From: Sipunculus nudus | Taxonomy: Eukaryota; Annelida; Sipuncula; Golfingiida; Sipunculidae | NCBI GenBank assembly: GCA_026874595.1 | Contig: CM049318.1 | Span: 10,583,241 to 10,647,240, forward strand | Length of the DNA: 64,000 bases | Direction: 5' to 3' | Shown: positions 16,383-64,000 of the stretch, piece by piece | Numbering within the stretch: position 1 is the first letter of the stretch | How the letters are laid out: the number at the start of each line of letters is the position of its first letter | The notes under the pieces: generated by a model | Told to the model about the DNA's origin: nothing | The model's database searches: none | The model's input: only the letters and a program-made list of their open reading frames with translations | Translations under genes and position numbers: made by a program

Positions 16383-19300
16383 ATGACAAAAACTTTGGTT
16401 GTGACATTTCTCCTCCTTCCCAAACCGGCAGGATGTAAGTTATTTTTAAAATGAGAACTGGAATACGAAAGTTTAACAAATTTAGTATTGTGTACAAATT
16501 TACAATTCTCAGTTAAATGGTTATTAAATTAATCATCAACCGAACAGGTTACCATGGTTACCGTGAATAGGGATACCGCTGTTCGGGAGTTTTGTGATTT
16601 TATATTAGCTCGATATATTGATACATGTACCTTCTAGGATAATGTTAAACAGTCGGTAAAAATATCATTCTCGTGTTCTTGTGTAGGCCTAGCTATTGCT
16701 ATTCCATTTATATGTTCACTAAGTGATAGTTTGTGTATGATGGTTATAAACTGATATAACGAGGTTAAAGGGAATTCCCAGCGGGAAAATTTTGCATCAT
16801 ACAAAGAAACACAGTTTAGCAACATGGAAATATAACCCTTTTTAAGGGGAATCACGATAAGTTTTATTTTCCCACTTTTTATGAGTAAACGAGAAAGCTT
16901 TAAATATAGCATTGTTGTGCTGAAATGTGTCATAGTGTATACCTGATTTAGCCCTATTCAAATGAATATAAAATCGATTGTGACAGGCACATACAGTGTC
17001 AAAACTTTGCATGGACGAATATAAACATCATTTGCCTGAAGATTATCTGATCTAGGGTTTCATGCCGTTGTAGCCATTTGTCGCCACATCCTGTAAACAC
17101 TAACAAAATAAAAAGTATTTTTGATCGTATTTAAAGGATAAAGTATGCAACTGTACATACAGGGGTTCGGTTGAAATGTTATTTAGTGCATTTAAATGCA
17201 AATATTTCAAATAAAACGAAGATAACTGCAAATATGATTAAATATCAAATGCTAATGCAGTACAAATTTTCGAATGAAAGGCGAATGTAAATGCACGGGC
17301 AAATATATTTTCATTTGAACTGTTTATTTGTTTTATATTGTAATGAATAATGAGAATATTGAGCTGCTGACCCATTAAATTTTAATTATTACATGGTTCT
17401 TAATAATTTATTTATTAAAATTCTAAGATTACACTTCATAACCGCATTTATTTTTTAAAAATCAAATGTTTCACAAACATGCAGCTGAGCGTTTAAGACC
17501 AATTTAATCAATTGAATGCCTATGTATATTTATGACGTATCTTTTGAAGCGAGGGGTTGTATGAGCAAGAGCTCATTTGAGAGTATGCCCGTGGCCTCAT
17601 AATTTATTAAAGAAGCCCTGTAAATCCGTTACTTTTGCTTTATTTTTTAGTCGTGCAATCAAAGGCATCGGTGGACCTGACCACGGCTAATAATATTTTC
17701 AAGCAACTTAGGACTGAACATGGGTTAGAAGTATCTCTCCCACAGGATCAGACAGATGCTCAGCATGAAGATCTGAAGCGCTTCCTGACAGAGAACAAGC
17801 TAAAGACGACATGGTTGCCTTATCGGAAAATTGTGTTCAATAATACCCAGTGGCTTAACGGCCAGGAAGTTGGTTAGTACACAAGACCAACAATTTTTGT
17901 AACAACAATTTCGGTAACCATATTCAATTTTTTCAACATGTATTAAGCATAAAGCTCTTGAAATCTTTGCGTTTCTGTGATAGATACAAATTACCTAGTT
18001 AATCGGTTTTACTATTAAATTACTTTGGTTGACTAGACAAAAAAGGCGTCTCATTGAATAAGACGAAACCTTCCCTAACTTCTTTGTAAAATACAATTTA
18101 TCAAAATGGAAAATTATATCCGTAGAATTTTCTCATATTGTTTTGGAAAACAAGTGTGTAAATTAAGAATTCCCTTTTTTAATTTGTCTCTGAGCACACG
18201 ATATATCTGTAATTAATATGTAAGATGACCCATCATCCCTTCAATATGTCATCGTAAAGACCAGACACATGAAAAGGGATTCGCATCCAGGCGTCTCATT
18301 GAATAAGACGAAACCTTCCCTAACTTCTTTGTAAAATACAATTTATCAAAATGGAAAATTATATCCGTAGAATTTTCTCATATTGTTTTGGAAAACAAGT
18401 GTGTAAATTAAGAATTCCCTTTTTTAATTTGTCTCTGAGCACACGATATATCTGTAATTAATATGTAAGATGACCCATCATCCCTTCAATATGTCATCGT
18501 AAAGACCAGACACATGAAAAGGGATTCGCATCCAACCTCCGACGTTACCTTGCATATACAATGTGTGGTGGTTCAAAGATCCAATAGGTCCGAAATAATC
18601 TTTAAACTGCAATATCATACGGAAAGAGGAAACTACGTAGAACTTGATCCCAGAAGTCAACTGTTTCTCTTTTTCATGAAATAATCAAACTGATCATTCG
18701 GAGAAATGTTCGGTTATGATCAGCTGTCTTTGATTAATTTACAATGGCTAAACTCATGTTCCTGATGCGACCACCGTAAGGAAGCAATTATCAGATATTA
18801 AGATATTAAGTAAGAATGTAAAAAAGTATCCACTTTTAGTATGGCTAGACGTTTTTAGTGTATATGTTTATTGTATCTATATATTTGTGTACGCAGACCG
18901 AAGGTTGATCTATGGTCCAAAAAACGTAAAAATCGGTCGATGTGGGATACTCCATGCGCGTGACGAGAGGTTGGAAATGGATCACTGTGGCACTCCGGAG
19001 TATGGTTACATAAGTCAAAAATAGGGTAAGTGGAGTGATTGCTGAATGCTAACGATGCTTGACTTGAAATCCAAAGTATGTGGGTTCTTCCACCATTCAA
19101 ACTGACCTCCATAGACTGTCCAAAGTCTTTACAATACGGCAAGCTGTCTTTACTTAGGAGTAAATTGGGACTGGTCATCAGCAAAAGACGAATGTAGTAC
19201 GATTACAATTCTAGCGTTATTCATGGCTGTTTGAGCTGGTGCTTTCTAATGAGTCGAGAAAATCTGCAAGAAATGACAGTTTTTTCGTTCATTTTAGCTT

Positions 19301-22300
19301 CTTAACATGAGGAAGGTTCACATAATAAAGGTAATTAATGTGAATTACATGCAAATACAATAGAACCCAAACATATTTATACCACCTGACTGTAAATTTT
19401 AAACTCTTCTTAGATATCTAATACTTTGATTCGAGTCATTGCCCCAGGCTTCTGAATATATTGTAACAGTTGAAGTATCTGTATTATGGATAAGAACAAT
19501 AATTAGTGAAATTCGTAATTCGACATTATCAAAGTGTGCTTGATAATATGTTGCAGGAATTTAAACTTCTTTTTTCCAGATTGCCATCAGTGTCTATTTG
19601 GAAAGTATGAACAAGACTATTTTATAATTAACCGGACGTGTTATACAGTGGCGTGTGGAGCAAAGAACTGGTTCGTTGCGCGAGACAAATGTCGAGATGC
19701 AGGAAGCGACTTACTGATTATGAGTTCAAGTCCACTACTCCAAATGCTATCACGTTTAATTAAAGGAAACACACGTAAGACTAAGAAGAACTTCAAATTT
19801 TGGATCGGAGTACTTGATGGTGGTTGGTTTGCTGAAGATTACGTAAATAAGGGTACGCATAACTATTGTTCACATTTATCTGTGACGGATGGTTTTCTCG
19901 CATATGTTTGTCTTTATATTTAAACTACTAGCCTCAGAAGCAGGTACTACACATAAAATTGTTTGCGACATTGTATGAGAACACACGAATGTTACAAATT
20001 CATGGAACTTAAAACACGTAGGAAACTTCTGGACGAGTCGCAACATATATCAGGAAACCGCTGAAGATCACAGGATACTGGCACCTGTGTGTATGTGTGA
20101 GGAGCAAATGAGAACCAATCAGTCCTTAACAATCCTTAAACAAAGGCAGACATCTCCAGCATTTCGAAATTAGGACCACGGTCACTGACGAATACAGAAA
20201 TTGTCACGTGTGTAGCCGGTGATGTGTTTCAATTGTCTGACATTATTTAGGGCTGTGAGCAAAAATGTAGATTATCAAGGAGATATTGTAAAGTTAGCAA
20301 TTTGGTATTTTTATCTTCATTATAATTACTGCGCCCAGTATTGTTATTTATAAAATTCATTTTTATGTGTCAAAGCTTTTTTTCTGATTTGGTTTCCTGA
20401 AAAAAATTTATTATACTGAATAGATTTAGCTGGGAAAAAAAACATAAGGGATACAATAAACACTAATTTTGCTATTTTTAATGAACTACACTGCATTATG
20501 AGAATCATAAGGACACGCATGGACTGATGTTGCATTTAATTTTTAGTACTTGTACCTGTGAATAAATTCCGTTGGTCAGAAGGAGAACCACAGACTGATA
20601 AAAACTGTGCAATCGCCGAACTTCAGGATGAACGATGGGTCGTCTGGAAATCGACGTCATGTTCTGAAAAACACAGCTTTCATTGCTTTCCAGGTAAATA
20701 GGACCCACTTGAAAAAGAACTTGCACATGCTCTGTGATATAATTTATCCCTCTCCATATAAAGTCAAAATTTCTTAGTTTGTTCACTGCACCTAAGGCTT
20801 ATATAATATGTCACACCTGTAAAATCACAAGCGTATACTTAGGTGGTAAAGGTGTATAGAAGTCTATAAAAGAAAGAGTGTTAAGTCTGGTGTGAAGAGA
20901 TACTTCACTGATGACTGGACTCGGAAACGTTACCTTTCTTCCCTAATCATTTGGTAGTCCATCGGCTAGAGATGACGCACATACGTGTAATGAATATATG
21001 TTTTATCTCGGCGGGTAATTGTTGAATACAGAAACAACCAGGCTCATTCCATTTACATCGCCATAATAGTTAGTCATTAGATTATCCAATCAAATGCATC
21101 AATAACCCGAATACGTTCGTATTCAAAGGCCCTGTGAATATTAATGAAATCTAGAAAAAGTTTCACAGATTGCGCATTGGCGCAAACCTCTGTGATATCA
21201 AATGTCGACCTTTGTTTCTGATATTAGAGACATTGGAACTCTGGAACACGTCAGCTACAAATAATAACGGTCTGCTGATGTGCCCCTGGTAACCACATCA
21301 CGTAAATGGCCAATTCTGATAATGTAAATGTATTTTTCTGTCATTCTTATGTCCTTGACGTATCTTGAGATTTAAAAGCAAATTATTATTACTCTATTGA
21401 TTACTGGATACGTCACCAAAGAAATGTCCGGTTAAAATCAATATCTCAACTCGCCTACTTTAATGGATTTTCTCTTTTAATCGAAGTCCTATCAGAAGTC
21501 GACACAAGAGAAGCCACCACGTCTGTGTAGATGATCCCTCAAAGTACCAGCGACCCAGTGACTGCTGTTCCAATCAAACCAGGCAAGAACTTTCCTTGTG
21601 CACGCAAACATTCTACCAGAAATAAACTCTGACATCAAATACGTGTAATGCAGGGTATTCTTACAACCAAAGCTATGGTACTGTGATCAATACCAACAAG
21701 GCCACTTTTCTCCAACCTTGCACAAAACATGTTCTGATTCTTTATCAAAGATCAAATTTGGTTTTGGTAAAAAGACGATTTTTCGGAATTAAATCAATAT
21801 CTTTAATCGGGAGTTAATGCGTTTTTCACTTTCATGACTTGCCGATTAATTTCCGAATGTTATGAACAGCCTAATAGTAGAAATAATGTTTGAATTAATG
21901 TCTTACAGAGATCAGTTATGATATGCTTATTCTTTAATCCTTCATGTCAGTTAGTTATATCCATAATTATTTTAGCAGTTTAAAACACTTTTGGGGGGAC
22001 CGATGAAAAGGAAAAGAAAATAATGACATTTCTAGGAAACTAGATTCCATGTTATGAAATTGTTCCCCCCCCCCCCCCCCCCCCCCAGGCATTTTCAATG
22101 AAACTGTGGCCCAGTATCGTCGATACAGGTGTTTGAAAAAAAAAACAATGAAATTAAACGGACGATACATATCAAATGTCTTCTTTATATTTAAACCTTG
22201 CCGTTTACTAATGCGTTTAGGCTGGTACGGAAGAACACTTTTTCTATAATTCCACTACCTATGACCCCTTTTCATTTAATATTGTTATATTTATTAAAGT

Positions 22301-25270
22301 TGTTTTAATTTTCATTTGTATTTCTTTCAATTTTTCCATATTGCCTTTATCAGACACCCGGGCCTTTATTCTATTCAGACCTGGTTTCGACCCGGCGTTT
22401 AAACAAAGCCGGCGTCTATTAAAGGCCGGCGTTTATTAAAAATATACAGGTAAGCATAATTGACGACTCGGGAAAATTTGCTGCCCGGTATGGAAAAAAT
22501 AGACGTGACACGTAATTTGAAAGAAAGAAACATTTATAGAGGAATTAAAATTTTTAATGAACACACAAAGAAATCGAAAGTCGCACAGCAATCTTCTTCA
22601 GTTAGTATGACCCATTCATGCACACATTATAGTGAGAGGAAAATACATGGTGCAAACATGGAAACTTCTCTGGTACCCGGCCTCTGAACAATACCCGGCG
22701 TCAATTAAAGGCCGGCTTGTATTTTCTTAGACAGTGTTTTGACCCGGCTACTAATTAAGGCCCGGGGTCTGATCAAGGTAATATGGTTTGTGTTTAGAAT
22801 GTCTGTGCCATGAAATGTGCAATGAAAATAACTTATTTTGATAACATTAGTTACAGACATTAAACCGATAGCTGACCTTCCGTCATGGGCGACTGCTACA
22901 ATAGTACTGCTTACGATCATCATAATAATTCTCCTCATTGCCGTCATATTATATTACCGAAAGTACAAGGAACAAATGGTAAGATAATATTCTATGCACT
23001 ATACGTGCAACATAACAAAAGTACCTCACCTTGTTTCATGCGTGCAGTTAATATTGAAATTAAGTTTTACCTACATGCATTAACAAACGAAAACAAGTGT
23101 ATGTGCTCTGCTTTTGCAGGTAAATGCGTGTTTGTTTAATAGTATGTGAATAAGAATCTGAGCTTGGACTGGTTTACTCATCTTAAATTTAAGGCCAAAA
23201 TAATAATTTACTAATTTTATGTTCTTTGGTGAACTTTGAACATATATTGTTATAGTCATTATGTATATCACTTTAATAAGCTACTTAATGAAAAATAACA
23301 ATTGTAACGTTATATCTCTCCTGGCCCTCAACGATAATGTCCTGTTCTCAATTCAAACCAAAATATTTAAGTTTTTTTTTATTTATACCACCTACTTCTT
23401 AGGAATAAAAATTTGATATTATGGTGCAAAAAAAGCTACTAAAAGCTAATAACTAGGCTACAAACTTTCGTATAAACTGTCAGGTATATTTGCATGAATT
23501 GGGGTTGACCGCTGACACTGCATCGTTACTAACGAGCTTATTTAATCGACGTTTTTAGTCAATTTATCTTTGAATAAGGGCGGACTGAGCCGTGTGGAGA
23601 CCGGGAACCTTCCATTGCAATGGTTTAGACGAAATCTTGATATCTGTGGGCGGATGGAATGAAAAAAAAATTCCAGGGCGATTTTTTCACTCAGATCAGC
23701 CCTGTCCTGCACGTTAATGAATGGTTCTTATTTGCAGGCCATAAACATTTGAGCAAAGTTTATTTCGAAAGATCACATATAAATTCCTTAGGTGGTTAAT
23801 TTTGGTCAAAATAAAAGTTTTGATTTGTTTACTATCCTTAGTCTTATATATCCACAACCCCAAAGTTAAATTGATAAACCACTGTGACATGAATGATGTG
23901 TCTTCCTTTTGAAACTGATACACTAATAACAAAATTGTAATGTTAATTCCAATTAAAAATAAATTTTGAAAATGTTGAATATTAAATTTAAGTGTAAACG
24001 TTTGCATATATACGTATACTTTGCAAGACTGTTTTATGAAACAACGATTGTTATACCGCAGGTATTCATTATACATAAACCGGATGATTCTTATGCCGTG
24101 AGATATCAAAGGAGAATAGAAGCCTGCAGCCTCAGGAACGTGAGTAACGGAAAAAGTCTTCAATTTTTTCCTGTGTAAGGGTTTATTTTCTTTTCGTTTT
24201 GTGCAATTACAAAGAAATAAAATAAATAAAAAAAATTGGACATTGATATAACAACGCTTCATTCAGTATTTCGATGTTAACCTTTCAGTGTTAAAATTTA
24301 AGTTGTCTTTTAGCAGGATGAAGATGAAGGTTATTTAGAAAGCCTCTCAGAAATAACCGTAAGTTCCTAAGTTTTTCCTTGGTTTCATTTATCATAACAA
24401 ATAAGTATTTAGTTTTTCAGAAACGATCATCAGCCACTGCCCTATCTATTTTTATGCATCCACTTTTTATTTAGTATTGCAACTATAGTCTTATTTACAT
24501 ATATATGCTTTCAGGCAATTCAATTGATTCTCCACCTCTATATTTAGTTAATTATTGTTGTTTCATGTAAGATAGCAACAATTTACTAACTGTAAAAATA
24601 CCTGAACTACTTACTAACTTAACATCGTTTTCACTGCTCATGGATATATAGCCTAAAAAAATCTTTATTTTAATTATATAAGAAAAGAAGTTAACTTATG
24701 AATAAAAACTTTAAAAAGCCAAATTGTGATCATCAGTTTTACAGTTTGAATTGTCATTTTGAACAGGAAAAAGACGGAGATCATTCCGATAACGACGGTC
24801 CACTTGCCGTAAGTTTTGTTTTTTTTTCCTGGGTACAGTTAATTATATTTCATTATAAGAGTATTTTTATACAGTACATTCTCTGGTAAAATTAAAATAC
24901 CGGTACTATACCGAACAGCGCCGCCTTGTTATTGTACAGAAAACTGGATACTTATATTTTATTATTTGATCAGTATAATAATCACTTAATATGATACTCA
25001 CTTAGCTGGAATTAGGATAAAATAGCTGCGCTAGAAGATTTTGTATGAAGACCATGTTGCTAAAACCATTTCAGGTTCATTATGTTCGTATTTTTAAATA
25101 TTATTACGAACATACATGGCGCTGCTTGTAGTATTTTCTGCACCTATTCCACAGACATTTTATATGTCTCCATTACAGTGCAGAATTTGCTGAGCTCGAG
25201 AGGAAAAGAAAGTCAAAGAAAAATAATAATTGAAATATTTTCTGTAACTGTCCAGAATGTGTTATGCTGA
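16383..25270 (+). CDS. Transmembrane receptor with two C-type lectin-like domains (CTLR-1)
   Basis: Exons: 16383-16434, 17651-17872, 18897-19025, 19580-19852, 20547-20693, 22857-22978, 24062-24139, 24317-24358, 24767-24808, then 25075-25087 plus 25179-25270 (or the alternative 3' exons at 29306 and 30579). All junctions are GT/AG and all phases agree. Exon 1 is a signal peptide starting MTKTLVVTFLLLP and ends at a consensus gtaagt donor. Exons 2-3 and 4-5 each encode one CTLD split in the same place. Exon 6 is a single transmembrane helix, and exons 7-9 form a small acidic tail in phase-0 units. Predicted length is about 403 residues if the TAG at 19022-19024 in exon 3 is bypassed, or 133 (secreted, first CTLD only) if it is used. 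A type I membrane lectin-like receptor in innate recognition is the family inference. A polyadenylation signal aataaa lies at 25353. Confidence 0.8.
17651..19025 (+). CDS. CTLR-1 exons 2-3: divergent first CTLD with in-frame TAG
   Basis: Exon 2 (17651-17872) gives the N-terminal half, ending ...NNTQWLNGQEV; exon 3 (18897-19025) gives the C-terminal half with RCGIL and EMDHCGT, the inner CTLD disulfide pair. The outer pair is absent on both sides: the helix-1 cysteine position is Phe (NNIFKQL) and the final cysteine position is Ser (YGYIS). Both halves are phase 1-1. Exon 3 is exactly 129 nt with a consensus gtaagt donor, yet codon 42 is TAG (19022-19024), two bases before the exon end. This may be a true stop giving a secreted form, a disrupted allele, or an exon that is skipped. 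Confidence 0.7.
18045..18534. repeat. Tandem duplication, two ~245-bp copies, in CTLR-1 intron 2
   Basis: The segment starting 'ggcgtctcattgaataag' at 18045 is repeated from 18290, apparently without change over about 245 bp. This is a very recent duplication or an assembly artefact. It is non-coding. Confidence 0.85.
19580..20693 (+). CDS. CTLR-1 exons 4-5: second CTLD, full disulfide set, no sugar-binding triad
   Basis: Exon 4 (19580-19852; acceptor ttccag; donor gtacgc) starts with a DCHQC hairpin cysteine pair, then CGAKNWFVARDKC, the typical W..A...C of CTLD helix 1, and FWIGV. Exon 5 (20547-20693) has WSEGEPQTDKNCAIAEL and WKSTSC...FHCF, supplying the remaining conserved cysteines. In Ca2+-dependent lectins the EPN/QPD and WND positions bind sugar; here they read EPQ and WKS, so classical mannose or galactose binding is doubtful. 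NRT in exon 4 is a possible N-glycosylation site. Confidence 0.85.
22340..22785. mobile_element. Inverted-repeat MITE in CTLR-1 intron 5
   Basis: The left end 'catattgcctttatcagaca' and the inverse of the right end (catattaccttgatcagacc) match as terminal inverted repeats of ~30 bp. Inside are inverted copies of 'cggcgtttattaaaggccgg'-type sequence. There is no transposase. The superfamily was not determined. Confidence 0.6.
22857..22978 (+). CDS. CTLR-1 exon 6: transmembrane helix
   Basis: After PSWATA comes a ~21-residue run of Ile, Leu, Val and Thr (IVLLTIIIIILLIAVILYY) and a basic stop-transfer (RKYKEQM). The exon enters in phase 1 from exon 5 (forming an Asp codon) and leaves in phase 0 at a gtaaga donor. 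Ectodomain phase 1-1 exons therefore switch to phase 0 tail exons here. Confidence 0.85.
24062..25270 (+). CDS. CTLR-1 cytoplasmic tail exons 7-10
   Basis: Exon 7 (24062-24139) encodes VFIIHKPDDSYAVRYQRRIE..., exon 8 (24317-24358) DEDEGYLESLSEIT, and exon 9 (24767-24808) EKDGDHSDNDGPLA. All are phase 0-0 with gtaagt/gtgagt donors. DEDEGY resembles the acidic lead-in of hemITAM receptors, but the tyrosine is followed by LESL (YxxxL), so no canonical YxxL is present. The last exon is uncertain: a 13-nt exon at 25075-25087 plus 25179-25270 keeps frame to a TGA; reading straight through 25075 stops at 25131; or splicing continues to 29306. Confidence 0.55.
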
Positions 25271-27420: not shown

Positions 27421-27954
27421 AACGATGCATTTAAAGCCACACCTTTTATCTCACAACTTTGATCTTTCACATTTGGCTCACTTACCAAGTGGGAGAAGAA
27501 TCCTATAGATTTGGAGGTCAAAGGTCAAGGTCACAGGATACACTTCTTTAAAAAGGTTGTAGACACATATCAAGCTAGACTTTTCATTCCAAACCGTCCA
27601 ACATTGACAAATCGCTTCTGCCAACAAGGGAAAAGACGTGTTGGTTTTTAGCTCAAAGGTCAAGTTCACAGCACCAACTTCTTGCTTGGAGTCATTTTAA
27701 GGCAAACTTATCAACCTATACCTTCTATCTGTCATATATAGCCTACCTACCAATACGGGAAGAACTCTTTTGATGTTGAGTTCAAAAGGCCCGAGGTCAA
27801 GGTCACAATACTAAATTGTTCAAAAAGCCTGTGAACCTATTTCACGCTAAAATGTTCATCGAAAACCTTCAGTCTTTCACATATGCCTCATCTATGCATA
27901 ACTCAATTTGATTCAGACTTCATATTTATGGGTCTTTTTACTTGAAGAAATAGC

Positions 27955-52370: not shown

Positions 52371-53161
52371 TTAGCTGAAGTAGCTGGAGTCTGAGTGCCA
52401 CTTCCTCAGACTGATTTTATGAGGAATTTTCACTTCATGGCGTTCTCCTTTTTCATGTTTCTGTGGTGCACATCTGAACGTGAAGGAACATTCAAAAGAT
52501 CCATCAACTTCCACGACTTGTTTCAGTTTAATCAACGCCACAGGCTTTCGTGGAATCGGCTCGTTGTATCCTTGGTAAGGCTTTGTCACCTGTTAAAGAA
52601 ATATTTCTTATTTTGGACAACAGAATTAAATATTATTTAGTATGGTCATTGTAATCATATACTTGTATAAATTATAAAACTACCCATTCTTTAGCAGTTT
52701 CATATGGCCGTCCCACAAACCACAGGAACAATTACTCGAAATACGTCTCAGAGTTATAGCGATTTGAACAGCACTGTATTTCAAGGTATTAAAAGAAAGG
52801 CACACCAGTTGTAAAGGTAGACTGGAGAGCATACCTGCCCCATGCCCTTTAGATTAAACTCAAAATCCCTTTTTTTCATAAAATCCTAAGAAAACTTCAT
52901 AGAAATATATCCGTAGCTGTTTCAGATATTTTGCATAAAAATAAACAATTTCCATAAAACTCAAGTGCTCGATGTTGTTCTTTTTTTTCTTACCATTAGG
53001 TTTTTGCTGACTCTGTGGGCTAAGTCAGTGTCTCGTATCACCCACTCTTCCTGGTCAAACAAATCAATACCGATTTCCATCTCAATCAAGAATGGGTTGT
53101 TTTCTTTCCCGAAGAAGGAGACTAACTCATTTTCGTTGTCAAGGCCGCAAAATAGTGGACT
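52371..53161 (-). CDS. Last two exons of the ZU5-type receptor: UPA-like end
   Basis: Exon 13 (53161-52994; acceptor cttacag; donor gtaaga) encodes ...LFCGLDNENELVSFFG... and exon 14 (52589-52371; acceptor taacag) encodes ...EVDGSFECSFTFRC... ending SDSSYFS and a stop. The 'FECSFTF' strand and the preceding acidic region recall the UPA domain that follows ZU5. They are joined to exon 12 because a gtaagc donor at 57951 and all phases agree, and because no start or promoter is seen between them. Confidence 0.65.
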
Positions 53162-56100
53162 CTGTAAGTTACGAGATACAGAATACATTAACCTTAAGAC
53201 AATCAGTGAAATCAAGATTCTTTTCTATCAAATATGTAGCCGCCTGATGGTATGATGGTGAAATAAATAAAATTTAATAGTAACCAAACAGTGTAAGTGA
53301 AGGATTTTTAGTTATCTCTTTCCCCTGCAAAAATGTACCTAAGTATAACACTATTAGTCAGGAATAATGTTAATGTTAACCAACGTGACCTCTCACCAAT
53401 CAGGACATTGTTGCACATGATAAACATTCTGCTGTGTTCTAGATAAAGGAATTGTCATATTCAAGTTTGATATGTATGATTTTGTAATTTTACAACATGT
53501 CAGATATACGTCATCATGACAAACAAATTCCAATTCTTGGTGAATTCACAACTGCGATTGAACACAAAAACAAAATCACAATCGCTACAGTCCTGGTATC
53601 AAGCGGAAAATCAGGATCACTGATAAGATATCAGAAAGCTCTGGAACTGGGAATTGTAAACACAATCAACAAGCTTGAAGTACAGCCTATACATACAAAC
53701 TGAAACCATCTGAGCTATTCACAGGTATTAGAAAGCTTAAAGATACACAGATTAAACTTAGTGTGGATCCAACAGTCAAACCAGTTGCACAAACTTATCG
53801 CAGAAAACCATTTCATTTAAAAAGAAAATATGTGACAAACTCAGACAAATGGAAGAACAGCACTTGATAGAGCCAGTTGAAGGCCCAACACCCTGGGTAG
53901 TACCGCTAGTCTGTGTACCCAAACAGAAAAACCCTGAGGACATTCGTTTGTGTTTAAACATGCGTGCACCGACCACAGCCATTCAAAGGACCAGACATAT
54001 TACACCACACCTAGATGACCTGATTGCTGATCTGAATGGTGCTGCTATAATTCTCAAAACTTGACATGGATCAAGCATATTATCAACTAGAACTGCATAA
54101 AGAATCGCGTTATCTCACAACTTTTGCATCACCGCTAGGCTTGAGAAGAATTAAACGCTTAGTATTCGGTGTGAACTATGCTTTAGAAATATTTCAAGAT
54201 GCTATCTCTAAAGTTTTGAGTGGACTTAAAGGTGTCATTAATGTATGAGATGACATCGTTGTATTAGTTGCCAAACAAGATGAACATGATCAGAACCTTG
54301 AAGCAGACTTGAACAGTACGGCTCAACGTTAAATGTAAATAAGTGTAAGTTCCACAAGGACGAAGTGACGTTCTTCGGCTTCATGTTCAACAAGAATGGA
54401 ATCGCACCTGACACCACAAAAGTTGAAGCCATCAAACAGACAAAACCACCAACATCGCCAACCGAAGCCAGAAGTTTTCTTGGAAAGACAAATTACCTGT
54501 CCCAATTCATTTCGGATTATTCAACCATTTCAAAACCATTCCGTAACCTCACCAGGCAACAAACAAAATGGCGGTGGACTGAACAAGAACAAAATGCATT
54601 TGATAAGTTGAAGCTTACACTTGCCAGCAGTAAAGTTCTTGCCTACTTTGACCTGAACTTGTAAACTGAATTCGTTGTGGATGCAAGCCCGGTAGGTGTC
54701 GCTGCAATTCTGCTGCAGTGTCAAATTGATGGTTCATATAGACCGTTAGTGTATGGAAGCAGAGCACTCAGAGACGTAGAAAGTCGTTATTCACAAACGA
54801 ACGAGAAGCGCTCGGTATTGTTTGGGAGTGCGAGATTTCCATACATACATATATGGAGCAGATTTCGATCTTGTGACCGATCATAAACCCCTGGGCCCAG
54901 GTTCATTAAACCTACTTAAGCCTGTTATTCCGCGTTTTTGACTCAAGTCATTTTTGTCGAGCTTTAAGTCAGTTTCATTAAAAATAACGTTAGTGACTTA
55001 AGTCACCTGGCGGGCTGAAATGCTAAGCCTGCACCGAGGAGGCTTAACTCTGTGTTTTATGGGTGTATAGCACATTATATCACTTGCACTCGTTGCATGT
55101 GACCATACGGCCATCTGTCGAGCGTGGTACGGTACGTCATAGGCGACAATGACGTCACGCCACGTGCCATTTTCCTGAAAGGTATCCGTAAACCAAAGAA
55201 TAGATCATGGGGGTTGTTGTTCGTTTTGTACAGTCAAGTACAGCAATACCACGATGTCCACACTGTTTTTTAAACTATTCATTTAAAAAGATCCCAGGAA
55301 TAACACAGGGTTAATTAAAATTCCATGTCACTATCTTCCGCAATAGGTGGCGTTGAAAAGGGGATTTCCAAGGTTCAGACTGACTTAGCAAAATCGCGTT
55401 TAGTGAAACTGACTTATCTCGCGGGCTTACGTTAGCCGACTTGGGAGGCGTTTCGGTAAAATTTGACTTAAGCCATACGCATTTTTAGTGAAACTGGGCC
55501 CTGGAGCTAATCCTGAACAATCCATACTCAAAACGTCCAGCTAGAATTGAACGATAGGGTCTTCGTCTCTCCGAGTACAAATTCAACGTAATCTACCGAC
55601 CTGGTAAAAACAACTCGGCTGACTTTTTGTCTCGAAATCCTTATGTGACTCATGCAAGTGATAAAATGGCAGAACAGTATGTACATTTCCTCACAAATCA
55701 AGCTATGCCATTAGTTCTCTCACTTCAAGAAGTTGAGATCACAACTGAACTTGACCCTACACTACAGGCAGTGAAATTAGCTCTTCACAGTGGTAACTGG
55801 CATAAAGCAAAACAAATGTCAGATGTCAACATGAAAGATTTTAAATGTGCTACACACAGTACGACATGATCTGACCATAACTGACAATTATCAAGACCGT
55901 GTTAATTTCATTGTGTTAAACGACAACCGTATAGTTAAATCAAAGTCACTGCAGAGCAGAGTGATTCAGTTGGCCCATGAAGGTCATCAAGGTATTGTCA
56001 CAGCTCCTACAAACAAAAGTTTGGTTTCCCGGTGTCAACAAACTCGTAGAGGATGCATGCCAAAACTGTCTACCATGTCAATCATCAATACCTGCAAAGA

Positions 56101-58813
56101 AAACTGAACCTGTGCAAATATCACAACCACCACCAGGCCCTTGGCATTCCTTTAGTGACGATTTCTGTGGACCGTTTCCTAATGGTTACTATGCCTTGGT
56201 TGTGATTGATGACTATTCTCGATACCCAACAGTTTCGCTCGTGAAATCAACATCAGCCACAACTACAATCAACAAGTTTGACAATTTATTTGCATTTTTC
56301 GGCATATTGTATTGTTCGGCATTCCTTATGTATGGCATACGTCAATGGTCCTCCGTTTAAAAGCAGTGAATTCCGCCGATTATGCCCAACCATGGGTGTA
56401 TCACACCGCAAAATCACGCCATATTGGCCTCAAGCGAATGGGGTCGCTGAACGATTCATGAACTCTCTGACTAAAGCCATTAAATCAGCAGTAGTAGAAA
56501 CTGGGAATTGGGTCACACAAATCAATCAATTTCTCAGAAATTATCGTGTTACACCACATCAACAGGCATCGTCCCAGGAACATGTGTTTGGCTAAGACAT
56601 TTGCACGAAACTACCAGAACTCCATGCTAAAACATCACCAGATGATACTGTCATTCGTGAACATGATTCCTTGGCTAAAGCAAAAATGGCAAATTATGCT
56701 AACCCTGTACATCCAACATCAGACATTATTCAGCCTGATGACAACGTTCTTGTAAAACAGGAACATAGAACAAACTTCCAACTACATTTTCTTCTGTGCC
56801 ATATAGCGTTACAGCAAAGAAAGGATCAATGATTACTGCAGCGAATGGTTCTCATGTTGTTACTAGAAATTCATTTTTCTTCAAATTAGTTTCTGCATCA
56901 GCTACGATACAAAACCAGTCTGATGAACCAGCACAGGCATCAGTATTACCCACTTCTAACGATGAGCCTGTATCTTATTCTGCAACCATCTTCATCATAG
57001 AGCTACAATCATCTCAGAGTGCATTACCAGTTGATCTACCCCAAGATGATTCAGCTACAGACCGTTCAATTTTAGAATTGTTTTAAGGCAAATTACACGA
57101 CTTTATTGTGATAAGATCTGGATAAACTCAGTAAAATTTAGCAAACAAGAAGGTATGTAATGTGAGGAAAACTTTTTTACTCGGACAGTGACGAATATTT
57201 ATTTTGAAGTTCGACAGTTGAGACATGAAGTTTAGTCCAAAAGTCCCTTACTGGAATATGTATGTTTTGTGAAGAAAAGACCCCTGGCGGAAGGTTGGCC
57301 TGTCCCAAAAGGACCAAAAGACTACGGGCATGCATGTTGATGCTGCCATGAGCATTTGATTACAATATTTCGAACAAAGGTCTTGATTTAAAAAGGAATA
57401 TTATATTACTATAAATATCTAAAGATTGCTGCAATTTGTTAAACACTTGGATCAGGGTATACCTAACATAAGCAGTTTATGTTCGTAAAGCCTTGAGGAG
57501 CAATGTTTACCTAATTATGTTATCAGCAGGGGGTACCATACATGCCAATCAACGTTTAATTAATAGTTTATAGAGCGTCGTAATGTTTGATTTATCATCG
57601 GGGTAACATTAAGATATATTAAGGGTATCTTTGTTAGTGTAAAACAAGCTCGTCCTGTGTGCTGGTCTCCGTATTACCCCTGGACGGAACTGCTTTGTAG
57701 CAATCGTCTGTGCTTACGATGACATTTGTTTGTATCGTGTAATGCTATATTTTGTAAATAAGGGAGCCAGAGTAAAATTAAATTCATATAAATCTTCAGT
57801 AGTGTCATCTGCACTTGAAGGTAATTTATCTAGTGCACCATCCGAGGACAGTGTGATCTTGTTTTTGAAACCAAAATGAATAATTAAGTCGAAGCACGTG
57901 GTCTGTGGAAAATTTCATGTTTTACAGATGAAGTGAATTGTCCATGCTTACCTTTGGGTGACACATGCTGATCTCTATGGACAAATATGGATGGTGATAC
58001 TGGCTCTGTATGTGGGGTCTTAAGACCTTTGGTATCTTTCTTTGGATCACAAAGTACCTTCCTGGGCTGGACGTTTGGATATCTACTGAAGATGGCGTAC
58101 GGAGTGCAGCCATTTTGCCATCTTTGCTGATTTCATTCCAAACGTCATTCCCGTGTTCGGACCATCTGCAAAAGTATTCATTCCAAAGGTTGTCATCTTT
58201 GTACTTAATTTTACATAGGCTGTGTTCTTTCTTTGAGAACAGGAGTTGAACGATGGTTCCTTTGGTTGGTGACAAAACGTGTGGTACCATTGGATCTTCA
58301 GCCTTGTGCACAGACATTGCAAAGAGTTCCTCTGTGCAAGGGGGAATTATTAATTCGAAATCTTCATTTAGAAGTTTCATCACCACAGTCCTGTCTGGTC
58401 TGCTGTGACCCGAGATTCTGTTATTCTGACTTTCTTCAATATACATTTTCTGGTGATGAAATCTTGAATTTGATGTACTCTGGACGGATATGTCAGAAAT
58501 TTCAGTGTATGGTGGCGGATCGTCGCTCTCTGCCAAGTTGTAATTGTTGATTCCAGAAGACAAAGAATGCCTGCATGTCATCTGATATTTTGCTACTGGT
58601 CTCACCTGGTGACACTGTAAAAATCGAATGTGATAAAGCATATGTCATAATAAAGTCAATTCCTATACCTAACAATAAATTGAATATTATTGAGAATAGT
58701 TCATTTGATAACATGCAGTGAAACATCTTCTTAGAACATGGCAACTTAAGTGTTAAAGCTTGTATTATCATTAATTATCATCACTTATTACGATTACGAT
58801 CAACAATCAATAA

Positions 58814-58863
<50 letters not shown>

Positions 58864-61800
58864 AACAATTGTATTTCTAATACAAATGCTCTTTTTCTAT
58901 TTTTTTGTGTATTTTTATCACAAAATGAAATTTAACGGTTTTTGTCTGTTCTACAGATTTGTTGAATACTACTATTTATATGGTTTCCTACCTCCTCTGA
59001 GTCAGTTTGAACTGCTACTGTGGAGCTTACAGAAAAAGGACCATCCGAGAAAGTGATGTTACTGCTGATGTTGTCTGCATTCTCCTTTAGATGCTAATGA
59101 GATATACATATATAGTATCTAAGGTGTCGTGAAAGTGGCATCATGCAATTCACATTGATATAAATTCCGCTTTTTTTTTTTTTTTTTTTTGCCGGATCCG
59201 GCTCATTCTCACTTTTGATCGTCATATGTTCAATTTAGGCGTTTCAATTGTAAAGATAAAATGATTAAGAATATTAAATAATAAGATAATAAATTTATTT
59301 AGATTAATATTGTAGACTTCTGTACAGTTCTGACCTTTGGAACGGGAGAATGAAGTTCTGTAGCGACATCGCTATCCCACTTAGGCAAAGAAATTGATAA
59401 CCTTTCCCCTGTTTCGCTCTGGTTTGATTCACGACTTGATTTTGAAAGCAGCTGCTGCAAAAAAAAACAATGTCATCCTTAACAAATGAAATATGAAAGG
59501 AAGACGAGTGTACATTTGCCTAAACTTCACGTTTGCTAGTTCGGAGGGATTGACCATGTATCAAGGAAAAAGTAATTAATATTTGGGATTGACAGATAAT
59601 ATATGAAAGCAGATCCGGAGCTGGATCCTCCTAAGTTCGCGGCTTTTTTTTTTTTTTTTTTTTTTTGTCGCAATGCAGTATCTCCATAAATATCTGTCAA
59701 CCCTCAATTTGATAACATCATCCTTTTCAAATATAACAAACTGTCATTTAAATTAAGTGAGGGTTGTGAGCAGGTAAATTATTTAAACCCCCTCCCGCAA
59801 GTGTAATTATGGCATATTTGAAGGGTTAAGGCACAGTTAAGCAACATTTGATGGATGTGCGATGCGGATTAGTCGTCTTTTGTTAAACCATTATGCAGAA
59901 CAACGTCATGAACACCAGATTGAACATCTAACTTTCTAGCGGAATATATTAGACGTTATGTAGTGCACGTAGCTTCACCTACGACAGCTATGGCATTGAT
60001 AATATATTATTACAATGGAACTTTTTGTCTTTTCTATGGTTTGTGAATACACCTATCTGAATGGTTTCCTACCTCCTCGGACACAGTTTGAATCGCTACG
60101 TGGTTGCTTCCTGATGAAGAATCATTCATGAATGTAAAGTCAATACCGATATCATCCGTATCTTCCTTCATATTTTAGTGACATGACATTATGTATGCAA
60201 TATATATTTTATAGTATTTATATAGAAAAGGGGTCGTGGAACACGAATATTTCACATTGCAAATGGATACACATCAATGCTTCCATAATTGTTTTTAATT
60301 TTTCTTGCTACAGATTTTTCAGGTATGAAAATGCGCGTTTATATGGAATGGTTGACACAGCTTATATTGATAAAGAATTTAGAAAACGTATACGATTCTG
60401 ACCGTTAGAATGGAGGAACGTGAGTGCACTTCTTCATTTTTAGACGAAGACAATGATTTCCTGTCCTCTGCTGTGTCCGGTTGTGATTCCTGACCGGAAA
60501 TCAAGACCTGTAAATACAAAGTTATCGTGGCCATATGAGTCGAAAATCAAATATTATTGAGACTTGCCATATACCTTTGGAGACTGATGTTGGAATGTTA
60601 AAAGATAAACTATATATAAAAAAGGAACGTATTTTACAGGCATGTTTTTACTTCGCATCCAGTCAACGTATCATGTGTTTCTTCCATTCCTTATTTTTTT
60701 TCATAAGACAACAAACTGTAGATGCCGATACTCACCGCTTCGAGTTCATTTATGGCGAAAATGATACTTTCATTATTATATGGTATTTAGCAAATGATTT
60801 AATTAAAATAAAAAACTGTTACAAGTCTGACCGATATGTACACACAAGTTCTTTTAATAAAACCCGAGTAATAAATTCATATTTGCACGATTTAGAAATA
60901 AATGTGATTAAAAAACTTACATCAGTGGATGACATATTCAGAAAATGATCGCTTCGAGGTTTAAACTGGATGCTTTTCAGGTCAGCGGACAAAACGAGCG
61001 AAGATGTTATGTCCTAAAGATTATAACATGATTTTGTTTTACCTTGTGCTATGATGAAAATATTGTCATATATGTATACCATTTAGAGATATACAGGGGG
61101 TAGCATGATTTACATATCGTCCATCCTTAGAATAATATAAATTAAGGTTCAAATTATTTGATCTTTGTTTTTACAGTGTATTACATTTTCAAACATCATA
61201 GATATGAGATATACCTTTTACTTACAGTATTACTCAGTCCAGAAATACATTCAGAAAGGTTGAAAGCAGCAAGTGGAATATCAAATCCAAGTGCAGAATT
61301 TGGAATTATGTTTGATGATTCAGAGATTCTCCTGATCAATGGAACAACCTGCAAGGACATTAAAAAAATGTGGCTGTTATTAATATGTTTAAAAGTTAGA
61401 TTAATTGTAATTGAAAACATAATTGATTCTGATAAAAATAAATTATCTTGTGCAGCAACTATAATTTAGGCTTACAAGTTGTGTCAGTATATATCTTAAG
61501 CAAAGTGGAAGACTGGCGATTAAAATGCTGCCAGGATTAAAACTATTCGACTGTCTAATTTGGTTCAAATGTGAGAGTCCCTCACTTTAGTACCATATTT
61601 TTTCACCATTGGTACATTTAATATTTAACTGTGTCAGCAAGATCTTAATAATTACAAATCAAGGAAGATCATACTAGCACCAGATACCTGCTCTGTTTCA
61701 TCATGGGTGTCATCTGACCTTGCCAGGACCTCCTGGGTATTAAATGTGACTTCAGCATTATTGTAGGCACTATTCTCAGCGGCATTTCTGGACGTTTGAT

Positions 61801-64000
61801 GTGAATTTCCTTCAGTTGTATTTATATCCTGTTCTGTAATGACTGTTTCCTTGAAATATATGATAAGCTTATTACAAAGTCGTATATTGATTCTCTATAC
61901 TTTTTATTAGGTAAGAAAGAAAGATTATACTTATGTCCCAAACATAAGCATTTTAGTTAAGGTGTAATGATTATCCGAAACAATTATCAAATATTTTGAA
62001 AAAGAGTAATTATCAGAGGAGACAGAGCTAAATAATGCATGTAAATGATTTTTACAAATGGAAACTTACACACAAAAAGTACAAAAATAAAACAAAGACA
62101 AACATAGAATCTAACACAATAAGGATGGCCCTAACAACCTATCAAATATAATATCAATTACACTGAGCAAAGCGCTTTAGACTATCTAGTTTTTTATTCA
62201 TTGTACTTATCATTCTACATATTTAAACGTGACCATTAAATGACCACATAAAGACATACGTTTAACCAGTGTTGCTCAGGTGGTATACACAAAATATATG
62301 TTAAAACCAATTAGAGCCTGAAAGACTTACATCTTGGATTATTTCTGTGGGGGCAGATGAATGTGAATGGGTCAAATCAGACACGACCCTGTCCAGGCTC
62401 AATGTGTTTTCATTTTCCTGTGGAATTATTTCAAAAGGTACATAATCAGGATAATTCCATGTTAGACCACATCAGGAGTGTATGACTATAACGTAAATGG
62501 TTAAATGACGCACAGACTTTTGTTACATTTTTACAGTTTTAACCACGAATTACAATACAGGAGAGTATACTTTTCATGCTTATTCATTAACGCTGTCTGA
62601 AGCGGTGTCTGATAATAAACCCACATGTAACCATTACATGTCTAACTATCCTGACCTTTTTTCAGGAGACCACAAAAATGTTGTACGTCGATCATTCAAT
62701 GAAAATGATAAATAACTCAGAACTTTTACTCAGTTTCAACTATATTTTGAGATTATCAGTGCGTGTTCAGCCAACCTATGATATAATATAGTATAATATA
62801 ATAAAATATATATCCTTACAGAGCTATTCCCTGGGGCGCTTTGCCGACTGGAGTTGATGCCACTGTCTGTCAGTATAGTTTCATGTTGGTTGTTCTCCTA
62901 CGTTCAAAACGAAATAAAAATAACATGTATAGCTATTCTTCTAGACGTATAAATACCGGATAAAGTATATACCCTAGATGCAAAATATATTCCTCATTTT
63001 TTATGGTCGCTCATATACAACAAAGTATATTTTATTATGTGATTTATTTTCTTTTAACTGTTCTCTTAGAGATGAAATGCAGAAAGTCACACTGCTCACA
63101 CTTTTGTCACTATTTTTTAACCATATGTTAGAAGTTATTGTAATGTGATGGGTATAGCCATGCGAGTTTAACCATGCTCAGTACGGAAGTGGCAACTATA
63201 AATAAACATGAATATATGATTTTGTACTATAAACTTTATTCCTTGTCACTGTAAACATCATCCTTTGCCAATGTGACAGCATAAGAATACAAAATGGGAA
63301 TATAAGCCGAAAGGTTTAAACTGTGTTACCGTGACCCCTGCTCCTTGTACATTTCGCAGCATCGACTGCCCCTCATCACCACGATCATTGCGGTCTCTGG
63401 GTCCCTGTATTGCATAATAAAATGATGAGCATGCAGAATTACATTAACCAATACATTACATTAACAGGTTTTCATAAAGTTTATTCTGAATTAAATTTCC
63501 TAATAGGAAACAGGAATGTCAATAGGAATGAACCATTTGACTCTCTTTCAGACCATGCTTTTATTTTTTTAAAATAACGTAACTGACGTAAATTACATAA
63601 AATTCTGATTGATTTTCAGGTATAAGATAGTAAAGTAAATGTTTTAAAAATTTAAGGAAAAAATATAAACTTATGTCTTTGTTTTGAATGTAGAGCTTTC
63701 TACGAACGTATCTGTTCTATTCTTTCATGTTTTTTCCTTATTTTTACGATTGTTGACAAATACCAACATCCTGCTGGTGATGCATAAAACTGTTTTTTTT
63801 TTTTACCTTGATGATGTGTCTCAACATATTTATAACATGAAAGGGTCCTACCTGAAGTGGGAAAAGTAAACCGATCAGCTAAAGGGCTACTGTATATATA
63901 CTGTATATTCATGTAAGTCTTACCTGCTGCCTACATTTCATCAAATAACATATTGCTAAAATGATGAGGACAACGACGGCCAACAACAGGAAGAAGAGGA
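52371..64000 (-). CDS. Transmembrane receptor with 14-exon 3' part and ZU5/UPA-like cytoplasmic region (partial)
   Basis: Exons from the right edge: 64000-63924 (transmembrane), 63404-63330, 62897-62820, 62417-62331, 61849-61688, 61348-61226, 61013-60921, 60507-60403, 60165-60073, 59454-59335, 59084-58992, 58614-57952, 53161-52994 and 52589-52371. Every junction after the first is phase 0, and every exon length is a multiple of three, giving about 717 residues from the helix to the TAA. The signal peptide and ectodomain lie beyond 64000. The tail is acidic and Ser/Asn-rich over ~340 residues, then has a PPPY motif and a globular C-terminal region. That region resembles ZU5 followed by UPA, as in UNC5, PIDD and ankyrins, but with no death domain after it. 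The 4.8-kb intron before the last two exons holds an antisense Ty3/gypsy remnant. By orientation and neighbours it may be another lectin-like receptor; this is unproven. Confidence 0.75.
53490..57086 (+). pseudogene. Ty3/gypsy LTR retrotransposon pol remnant
   Basis: In order: a protease-RT linker (53497-53703), RT (about 53770-54660) with PWVVPLVCVPKQ and QAYYQLEL, RNase H with VVDASPVGVAAILLQ (54674), and integrase with the HHCC-type finger (AHEGHQG ... CQNCLPCQ, 55970-56080) and VVIDDYSRYP. It is inactive: stops interrupt RT at 54062 and within the catalytic box (TGA at 54246 just before DD), another stop is at 54662, there are several frameshifts, and the second integrase aspartate position is Val (VNGPPF). 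A 607-bp MITE splits RNase H. A possible 3' LTR starts near 57157 (tgtaatgtgagg); paired LTRs were not confirmed. It is antisense within the host gene's intron. Confidence 0.85.
54894..55500. mobile_element. MITE inserted in the gypsy RNase H region
   Basis: The inverted ends are ggcccaggttcattaaacct on the left and the inverse of 'agtgaaactgggcc' on the right, flanked by CTG on both sides (54891-54893 and 55501-55503). Excision in thought restores the codons for TDHKPL-ELIL in frame, so the boundaries are firm. The ends and the 3-bp target duplication suggest a PIF/Harbinger-type DNA transposon; a shorter duplication is also possible because of base sharing. Confidence 0.85.
57952..58614 (-). 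CDS. Exon 12 of the ZU5-type receptor: PPPY motif and ZU5-like domain
   Basis: A 221-codon exon (acceptor tttttacag). It has YQMTCRHSLS..., then SDDPPPYTEISD, a PPxY ligand for WW domains such as Nedd4-type ubiquitin ligases. The globular part follows: FELIIPPCTEELFAMSVHKA, VLSPTKGTIVQLLF, and SPGRYFVIQRK near the end. These match ZU5 landmarks (hydrophobic-IPPG, L..., TvlSP, and G.Y.f). The family call rests on pattern alone. If the gtaagc donor is not used, the frame stops nine codons later. Confidence 0.6.
58816..58858. repeat. (TA)n microsatellite
   Basis: About 21 TA units, in an intron. Confidence 0.95.
58992..60507 (-). CDS. Exons 8-11 of the ZU5-type receptor: duplicated exon pair
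   Basis: Exons 60165-60073 and 59084-58992 both have 31 codons and end ...HVAIQTVSEE and ...STVAVQTDSEE. Exons 60507-60403 (35 codons) and 59454-59335 (40 codons) share an ESQ/ESNQSE core and gtcaga donors. Intron starts also match (gtaggaaaccat). A two-exon block of about 1.08 kb was duplicated in tandem. The acceptors of the 31-codon exons lack a strong pyrimidine tract. Confidence 0.65.
59167..59667. repeat. Two poly-T tracts with GGATCC flanks
   Basis: T runs of about 20 bases at 59169-59189 and 59647-59667 lie next to 'gccggatccggctc' and 'ctggatcctcctaagttcg'. They may be tails of short retroelements or ends of one small element. Non-coding. Confidence 0.4.
60921..63404 (-). CDS. Exons 2-7 of the ZU5-type receptor: phase-0 tail exons
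   Basis: Six exons of 25, 26, 29, 54, 41 and 31 codons, each with GT donor and AG acceptor: starts GPRDRNDRG, ENNQHETIL, ENENTLSLD, ETVITEQDI, VVPLIRRIS and DITSSLVLS. They are Ser, Asn and Glu rich, without predicted fold. Exon 5 has SAYNNAEV, a possible pYxN site. As all are multiples of three and phase 0-0, any of them can be skipped without frame loss, so tail length could vary. Confidence 0.7.
63924..64000 (-). CDS. Transmembrane exon of the ZU5-type receptor (cut by window edge)
   Basis: LFFLLLAVVVLIILAICYL followed by MKCRQQ and a gtaaga donor: a hydrophobic helix and basic stop-transfer, placing everything downstream in the cytoplasm. The upstream end is outside the window. Confidence 0.75.

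Follow-up and report, generated by a model that had tools for sequence, protein, structure and literature searches.

A C-type-lectin-like receptor gene of Sipunculus nudus with an exon-modular tail and a ZU5-like terminal region

ZU5 modules occur in cytoplasmic adaptors such as ankyrin, in netrin receptors and in inflammasome sensors, and the autoprocessing ZU5-UPA units of FIIND and PIDD are cleaved between F and S at the ZU5/UPA border. SH3BP4 and MACC1 also contain ZU5 and are not known as membrane receptors. In ankyrin, the ZU5N-ZU5C-UPA unit is described as binding spectrins, dynactin and PI3P (PMC5089861), and the cytoplasmic proteins SH3BP4 and MACC1, likened here to the present gene by description only, have been tied to receptor endocytosis (PMC8038998). 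Among proteins with C-type-lectin-like domains (CTLDs), a survey of bivalve CTLDcps reports bivalve-only architectures and a CTLD group that has expanded in bivalves and has putative roles in immunity, and its main text contains 0 occurrences of ZU5 (PMC10140915).

Here, we describe a gene in a 64,000-nucleotide window of the Sipunculus nudus genome (the whole stretch of DNA analysed; GCA_026874595.1, contig CM049318.1) that shares features with several of these systems. As in the bivalve CTLDcps, it carries CTLD domains, and paralogous CTLD genes lie nearby. It resembles UNC5 in its predicted layout, with one membrane pass, a ZU5-like region on the cytoplasmic side and then a further region, but differs in having two CTLDs rather than Ig/TSP domains, no death domain, and a ZU5/UPA match at or near chance. 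The likeness to ankyrin concerns the first ZU5 (ZU5N) of ankyrin-2 and ankyrin-1 and the C-terminal half of the ZU5-like part; in contrast to ankyrins, the ZU5-like domain would sit on a transmembrane receptor, its N-terminal half and the UPA are unmatched, and neither ankyrin repeats nor a second ZU5 nor a death domain is recognised. We give a probability of about one half to the reading that the gene encodes a CTLD receptor with an exon-modular, probably disordered tail and, at the end of that tail, a divergent ZU5 docking domain of ankyrin type.

The gene model, derived from sequence and extended beyond base 64000 in the same genome, lies on the minus strand and forms a single open frame of 1,045 residues, running from a candidate signal peptide to its sole stop, the TAA at 52371, up to which the joined exon translation of the tail stays open. 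It predicts a type I transmembrane receptor with a candidate signal peptide, two CTLDs, a short linker, one transmembrane helix and a tail of nearly 700 residues. The first-pass annotation had proposed a receptor with a modular tail lying next to CTLD receptors; the modular tail holds, and the neighbouring paralogues exist, but the wording understated the case, the gene being itself a CTLD receptor whose two CTLDs lie past the window edge. The ectodomain consists of symmetric phase-1 exons (six, all 1-1) plus the candidate signal-peptide exon. Pfam matches Lectin_C (PF00059) in two stretches at E=2.3e-12, C-type lectins in the PDB match from E=1.1e-4, and scans of the model minus the signal-peptide exon returned only Lectin_C above the cut-off. 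The classical CTLD sugar site is EPN/QPD together with WND; by eye, this Ca2+-dependent site is absent, the WND position reading LSWKAEPC in CTLD2 and RRLELSHC in CTLD1.

The predicted transmembrane helix, already noted in the first pass, is encoded by an exon at 64048-63924 (64000-63924 inside the window), phase 1 in and 0 out, with the hydrophobic stretch FVLLFFLLLAVVVLIILAICYL. After it come ten small exons, then the long exon with PPPY and finally the two terminal ones; exons 2 to 13 are all phase 0-0 and every tail junction is in phase 0. The small exons, all on the minus strand, are exon 2 (63330-63404, 75 nt), exon 3 (62820-62897, 78 nt), exon 4 (62331-62417, 87 nt), exon 5 (61688-61849, 162 nt), which contains AYNNA, a YxN motif of Grb2-SH2-like type, exon 6 (61226-61348, 123 nt), exon 7 (60921-61013, 93 nt), exon 8 (60403-60507, 105 nt), exon 9 (60073-60165, 93 nt), exon 10 (59335-59454, 120 nt) and exon 11 (58992-59084, 93 nt). 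Eleven such exons had been claimed; the chain of symmetric phase-0 exons stands, but it numbers ten of 75-162 nt, and eleven is reached only by including the transmembrane exon. Exon 12 (57952-58614, 663 nt; acceptor 3.0, donor 6.9) carries PPPYTEI and then the ZU5-like region (58392-58027), after which the UPA-like region begins; the latter would continue through exon 13 (52994-53161, 168 nt) and end in exon 14 (52371-52589, 219 nt with the TAA), its UPA nature being unproven. The join of exons 12, 13 and 14 and the PPPY in exon 12 were recovered on the minus strand as described earlier, with no stop before the TAA. The absence of a death domain was likewise borne out: the frame ends 72 residues into exon 14, and Pfam recognises none. 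The predicted tail comprises a Ser-rich acidic spacer from the ten symmetric exons, the PPPYTEI motif, whose PPPY lies at tail position 401, and, at its end, a terminal region of some 275 residues. The spacer (343 aa; Ser 17.5%, Asp+Glu 16.9%, one Tyr) is probably disordered. Pfam matched neither ZU5 nor UPA in the spacer, in exon 12, in exons 12-14 or in sub-pieces.

The chain of small exons exceeds chance expectation. Splice sites were scored with a generic matrix, and open, phase-0 segments of 60-200 nt were counted. Between 63910 and 58701, at an acceptor score of at least 0 and a donor score of at least 2, the minus strand gave 6 segments (5 disjoint) and the plus strand 0, against a mean of 0.155 in first-order Markov sequences, of which 0/200 reached 5. 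These six are exons 4, 6, 7 and 10 exactly, exon 10 from a second acceptor 3 nt on, and exon 5 from a slightly better in-frame acceptor 21 nt on. With both thresholds at 2, the same interval gave 3 segments on the minus strand (2 disjoint), 0 on the plus strand and a Markov mean of 0.05 (0/200); no minus-strand segment remained at 3/3 or 4/4. A scan at 2/2 of both strands of eleven 5.2 kb slices (0-57.2 kb) found 1 segment on the plus strand at 20800, 1 on the plus strand at 52000 and 2 on the minus strand at 52000, with 0 in all others. The minus-strand slice at 52000 overlaps the present gene. Certain proposed sites are weak, namely the acceptors of exons 9 (-5.9), 11 (-2.1) and 5 (-0.6) and the donors of exons 3 (0.0), 2 (1.1) and 8 (1.4). 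Exons 9 and 11 are a tandem duplication that includes the splice sites (a DNA score of 74, the highest of 300 shuffles being 34; protein 0/1000 shuffles), and both are therefore supported as exons.

The evidence for a ZU5 comes mainly from pairwise comparison with ankyrins, a comparison picked after the likeness had been noticed by eye, ZU5 as a family having been named beforehand in the first pass. BLASTP against the first ZU5 of ankyrin-2 gave E=6e-5 with 28% identity over 72 columns; shuffle z scores were 8.3 and 8.5 for ankyrin-2 (0/1000 each) and 5.9 (2/1000) and 9.4 (0/1000) for ankyrin-1. Among 161 open reading frames of at least 80 aa, that of exon 12 ranks first against both, and its reversed sequence scores 32, compared with 61 and 53 for the forward sequence against ankyrin-2 and ankyrin-1. 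Of eight ZU5 sequences compared, two match clearly, two weakly and four at chance; ankyrin-3 is weak (z 1.6 and 3.8, with unrelated frames outscoring it), and the second ZU5 of ankyrin and the ZU5 of UNC5C gave no match. An HMM of the three ankyrin first ZU5 domains scores 7.6 bits, a value reached by 1/2000 shuffles (1651 reported), compared with -0.7 bits (341 of 2000) for an UNC5 ZU5 HMM. The likeness is confined to about 66 residues, and the N-terminal half of the ZU5-like part aligns at chance (z 0.6-1.6). The designation ZU5-like holds in part: over the C-terminal half, an identity of ankyrin ZU5-1 type has weak to moderate support. That the first ~120 residues of the terminal region form a divergent ZU5 fold, nearest the first ZU5 of ankyrin, is supported but not proven. 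We infer that the ~150 residues after the ZU5-like part fold together with it in the place of UPA.

A quite plausible alternative, which we nevertheless place second, is that the terminal region belongs to some other, perhaps lineage-specific, family of folded, beta-rich cytoplasmic domains. Its likeness to ankyrin ZU5 would then be limited to a short W-x-E-x-F-C / YF pattern and be coincidental or convergent, and an ordinary, though long-tailed, CTLD receptor would signal by PPPY and YxN. Several results point this way. Profile searches recognised neither ZU5 nor UPA (PF17217) in Pfam up to E=10, while an UNC5B control matched both (ZU5, PF00791, 4.4e-27). The 275-aa region of exons 12-14 gave no match by phmmer in the PDB, and the ZU5-like part alone found no ankyrin there, only two unrelated chains (E 0.84 and 1.3). 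In hhalign against a two-sequence UNC5B/ZO-1 alignment the probability was 0.1%. An AlphaFold model made without an alignment had too low a confidence to speak for or against a ZU5 fold (pLDDT 34.5), and a Foldseek search with it returned chance matches, with no ZU5 protein in the best 50 of 128. The restriction of the ankyrin likeness to so few residues, the failure of ankyrin-3, the negative UPA comparisons and an eight-sequence ZU5 HMM score of 1.7 bits that 72/2000 shuffles reach favour the same alternative. Against it stand the pairwise E value and the 0/1000 shuffles for a family named beforehand, and an IIPP strand at the start and a YF strand at the end that, by eye, lie in the order expected for ZU5.

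The proposal of the first pass, a ZU5-UPA signalling tail of UNC5/PIDD type that has lost its death domain, appears improbable. It accounts for the order of transmembrane helix, spacer, ZU5-like part and further region in a frame without a death domain, and in C. elegans a short form of UNC-5 without DEATH, UPA and most of ZU5 is reported to have its own role (PMC10464613). The UPA of UNC5B gave z scores of 1.1, 2.2 and 3.3 at three settings, but under the setting with the value of 3.3, a mismatched control pair scored as high as 2.6. In further comparisons with UNC5 sequences, the ZU5 of UNC5C scored z -0.6/-0.2, that of UNC5B 2.2/3.2 and the UNC5 UPAs -0.4 to 1.6; the ectodomain is CTLD rather than Ig/TSP, and the first ZU5 of ankyrin-1 and -2 fits better and was preferred to UNC5 as the closest relative. 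Whole-region alignments with UNC5B, global and local, were not clearly above shuffles (828/1000, 259/1000, 221/1000 and 71/1000 in the four settings used). The UPA-like label found no convincing sequence support from ankyrin or UNC5: five UPA sequences gave z -1.3 to 1.6, and UPA HMMs were likewise at chance. A tblastn match of this part at 27798-27878 was set aside as chance (E=1.2 and 0.63, no similar exon around). By eye, no FIIND/PIDD-type F-S cleavage site lies at the ZU5/UPA border, which reads SSPGRYFVIQRK, and the sole F-S pair in the ZU5-like part sits mid-domain (LLFSKK). We infer that the ~150 residues after the ZU5-like part fold together with it in the place of UPA.

Least probable is that the locus holds two genes, with the CTLD receptor stopping at the small-exon tail and an independent cytoplasmic gene beginning near exon 12. 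The 4.8 kb intron between exons 12 and 13 with its retroelement pieces and the weakness of certain splice sites might suggest this, but the small-exon chain reaches exon 12 without a stop, every tail junction is in phase 0, the exon 12 sites score 3.0 and 6.9, and one frame runs from candidate signal peptide to TAA.

If the gene is a CTLD receptor with an ankyrin-type docking domain, its CTLDs would bind ligand, probably not through the classical sugar site, and clustering or ligand capture would be relayed inward through docking rather than enzyme activity. The ZU5-like end could serve as the receptor's anchor to an adaptor or a spectrin-type cortical skeleton, and PPPY could recruit a WW-domain ubiquitin ligase, leading to uptake and turnover. 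Exon phases may permit skipping of exons 2 to 11, which would alter tail length and motif content and, because every spacer exon is symmetric, retain the terminal domain. More tentatively, and with considerable doubt, an ankyrin-type ZU5(-UPA) in cis might wire a lectin-like ectodomain directly to spectrin or some other partner of ankyrin, with no need for an ankyrin adaptor; the ten symmetric exons would set the receptor's reach, and the tail would be swapped among otherwise paralogous CTLD receptors of one cluster. A ZU5-CTLD fusion, if true, would mean that lectin-domain surface receptors gained a built-in docking domain, and the cluster is one in which the joining of paralogous ectodomains to unrelated cytoplasmic tails can be tested. 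Searches for relatives of exon 12 in prokaryote genomes, viral contigs and phage records found none, and in its own genome the exon has a single match.

The gene, a minus-strand CTLD (C-type-lectin-like domain) receptor model in the window (C13:10583241-10647240, from an assembly of 1.43 Gb in 153 contigs), runs on in the 5' direction past base 64000, and 59.4 kb of the same genome beyond that base were added to the analysis, with window numbering carried on. Upstream of the transmembrane (TM) exon (64048-63924), the minus strand holds two linker exons (68294-68256 and 68974-68912) and the exons of two lectin-like domains, CTLD2 (69819-69676 and 70696-70427) and CTLD1 (71110-70982 and 73563-73348). 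A further exon (75911-75839) is a candidate for the signal peptide. Signal-exon candidates numbered four in the scan of 95000-73500, with two lying no more than 6 kb upstream; the gene model joins only the nearest. The joined frame comprises 1,045 codons with a single terminal stop, and exon phases are 1-1 in the ectodomain, 1-0 at the TM exon and 0-0 in the tail. Pfam Lectin_C matches the ectodomain in two stretches (E=2.3e-12), and a PDB search with the ectodomain returned C-type lectins (best E 1.1e-4). The WND motif, the classical CTLD calcium motif, was not found by eye in CTLD1 or CTLD2.

The tail consists of small exons (E2-E11) followed by E12 (58614-57952), E13 (53161-52994) and E14 (52589-52371), with AG/GT borders at the internal exons and with every length from E2 to E14 divisible by three. 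The chain of small exons in the first-pass annotation is present, although we count ten rather than eleven. At moderate splice-site thresholds (acceptor at least 0, donor at least 2) the minus strand yielded five disjoint open segments, against a mean of 0.155 in random sequence (equalled in 0 of 200), and all five are proposed exons: E4, E5 (picked up with an acceptor 21 nt further on), E6, E7 and E10. E2, E3, E8, E9 and E11 fell below these thresholds, and none of the chain passed at 3/3 or 4/4 (acceptor/donor). E9 and E11 are tandem duplicates, splice sites included, and were the sole pair among the 45 formed by the ten exons whose score was reached by at most 10 of 1000 shuffles. The intron between E12 and E13 contains pieces of a Ty3/gypsy-like retroelement (53700-57100), including an RT_RNaseH_2 match below the Pfam cut-off (54302-54661, E=1.8e-4) and, by eye only, further RT- and integrase-like ORFs.

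We give a probability of roughly 65% to the terminal region holding a ZU5-like fold. Neither ZU5 nor UPA was found in the E12-E14 region by Pfam search to E=10, a PDB search to E=10 gave no ZU5-UPA support, and hhalign, with a thin alignment as target, gave a probability of 0.1%. The Pfam and PDB negatives weigh little for a remote relative, because HMMER filters discard most matches above about E 0.1. The Pfam ZU5 model, of 97 positions, also stops short of the ankyrin-like stretch, its end falling near residue 86 of the UNC5B control, and this could account in part for the missing Pfam match. The structure model of the region was too low in confidence for use (pLDDT 34.5), and among the 50 Foldseek rows listed for it, of 128, none carries the name of a ZU5 protein. 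In a targeted shuffle comparison of the ZU5-like part (in E12) with eight ZU5 sequences, the signal was clear for the first ZU5 (ZU5-1) of ankyrin-2 (z 8.3 and 8.5) and of ankyrin-1 (z 5.9 and 9.4); ankyrin-3 ZU5-1 (z 1.6 and 3.8) and UNC5B (z 2.2 and 3.2) were weak, and UNC5C and the three second ankyrin ZU5s were at chance level. An HMM of the three ankyrin ZU5-1s scored 7.6 bits (reached by 1 of 2000 shuffles), one of all eight ZU5s 1.7 bits (72 of 2000), and the score of an HMM of UNC5 ZU5s was reached by 341 of 2000. BLASTP of the single pair with ankyrin-2 ZU5-1 gave E=6e-5. In the ZU5-like region proposed earlier, the ankyrin likeness is limited to approximately 66 C-terminal residues (LWNEYFCRWSE...GRYFVIQRKI vs SWKEHFCDYTE...QYFAVVSRI), and alignment of the N-terminal half to ankyrin is at chance.

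The accompanying UPA-like region (end of E12, E13 and E14) gave no match in Pfam or among the five UPA sequences tried. UNC5B UPA reached z 3.3 (10 of 2000 shuffles) at one of three settings, to which we give little weight because a deliberately mismatched pair reached z 2.6 at that setting. That a UPA follows the ZU5-like part is a tentative reading, somewhat less probable than its absence.

The spacer, Ser-rich, acidic and with one tyrosine in 343 residues, is by this composition probably disordered. Eleven motif patterns (PPxY, YxN, ITIM and others) were scanned on the tail, and weight was given to PPxY and YxN. ITIM, ITSM, NPxY and 14-3-3 patterns were absent; the other matches (YxxPhi, DxxD and one each TRAF2-, TRAF6- and acidic-dileucine-like) are short patterns that may have arisen by chance. 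The most economical mechanism, which beyond the anatomy we infer throughout, would be a docking receptor whose CTLDs engage ligand outside, whose ZU5-like end would provide anchoring inside, whose PPPY might drive turnover and whose spacer could be tuned by exon skipping. Spectrins, dynactin and PI3P are reported as binding partners of the ankyrin ZU5N-ZU5C-UPA module (PMC5089861), and the ankyrin ZU5-UPA module is also described as containing the beta-spectrin site (PMC3663501). For UNC-5, a short isoform that lacks DEATH, UPA and most of ZU5 has a role of its own (PMC10464613), so trimming such tails can have consequences. No CTLD-ZU5 receptor appeared among the open-access literature matches listed; in passages of PMC8195603, one of three papers that mention both ZU5 domain and C-type lectin, the two stand in separate contexts, and ZU5 has zero occurrences in the main text of a bivalve CTLD survey (PMC10140915).

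Two neighbouring genes have CTLD exons related to those of the receptor. Gene A (plus, 17.6-25 kb; 17611-24808) has CTLD exons, a TM exon placed by eye (22851-22978) and three small phase-0 tail exons; the same scan gave no further internal exons to 42 kb, and a terminal exon was not found. Its phmmer E values were 1.5e-17 (CTLD2) and 2.8e-14 (CTLD1), with 2e-11 and 3.6e-12 for the respective second halves, and the piece 19519-19920 matches Pfam Lectin_C above cut-off (E 1.2e-4). A gene A intron holds a head-to-tail repeat of an approximately 245-base unit, seen by eye (18045-18534, plus). Gene B (minus, 46.4-42.0 kb; 46381-42017) has CTLD exons and, placed by eye, a TM at about 43.05 kb. It matched the first half of CTLD2 at E 2.1e-6 (second half 0.28), and its piece 46381-46142 lies below the Lectin_C cut-off (E 0.0038). 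In its tail ORF (42652-42017) there are tyrosine stretches reading YDNV and YGED; the ORF has no Pfam match and no visible kinship to the receptor's tail. The E12-E14 region was not seen in either gene, phmmer with the ZU5-like and UPA-like parts gave E<0.1 in their own gene only (ORFs of at least 25 aa, 123.4 kb), and E12 was its own sole match at E<=0.001 in a whole-genome search with five candidates scored. Plus-strand CTLD1-like fragments (L003:6281-6480, carried on as 80081-80280; E 1.6e-5 and 4.7e-5) are possibly a fourth gene or pseudogene. At the other end, a gag-like open frame of 662 aa runs off the window edge (1-1986, minus) and contains a zinc knuckle of the CCHC type (E=1.7e-4).
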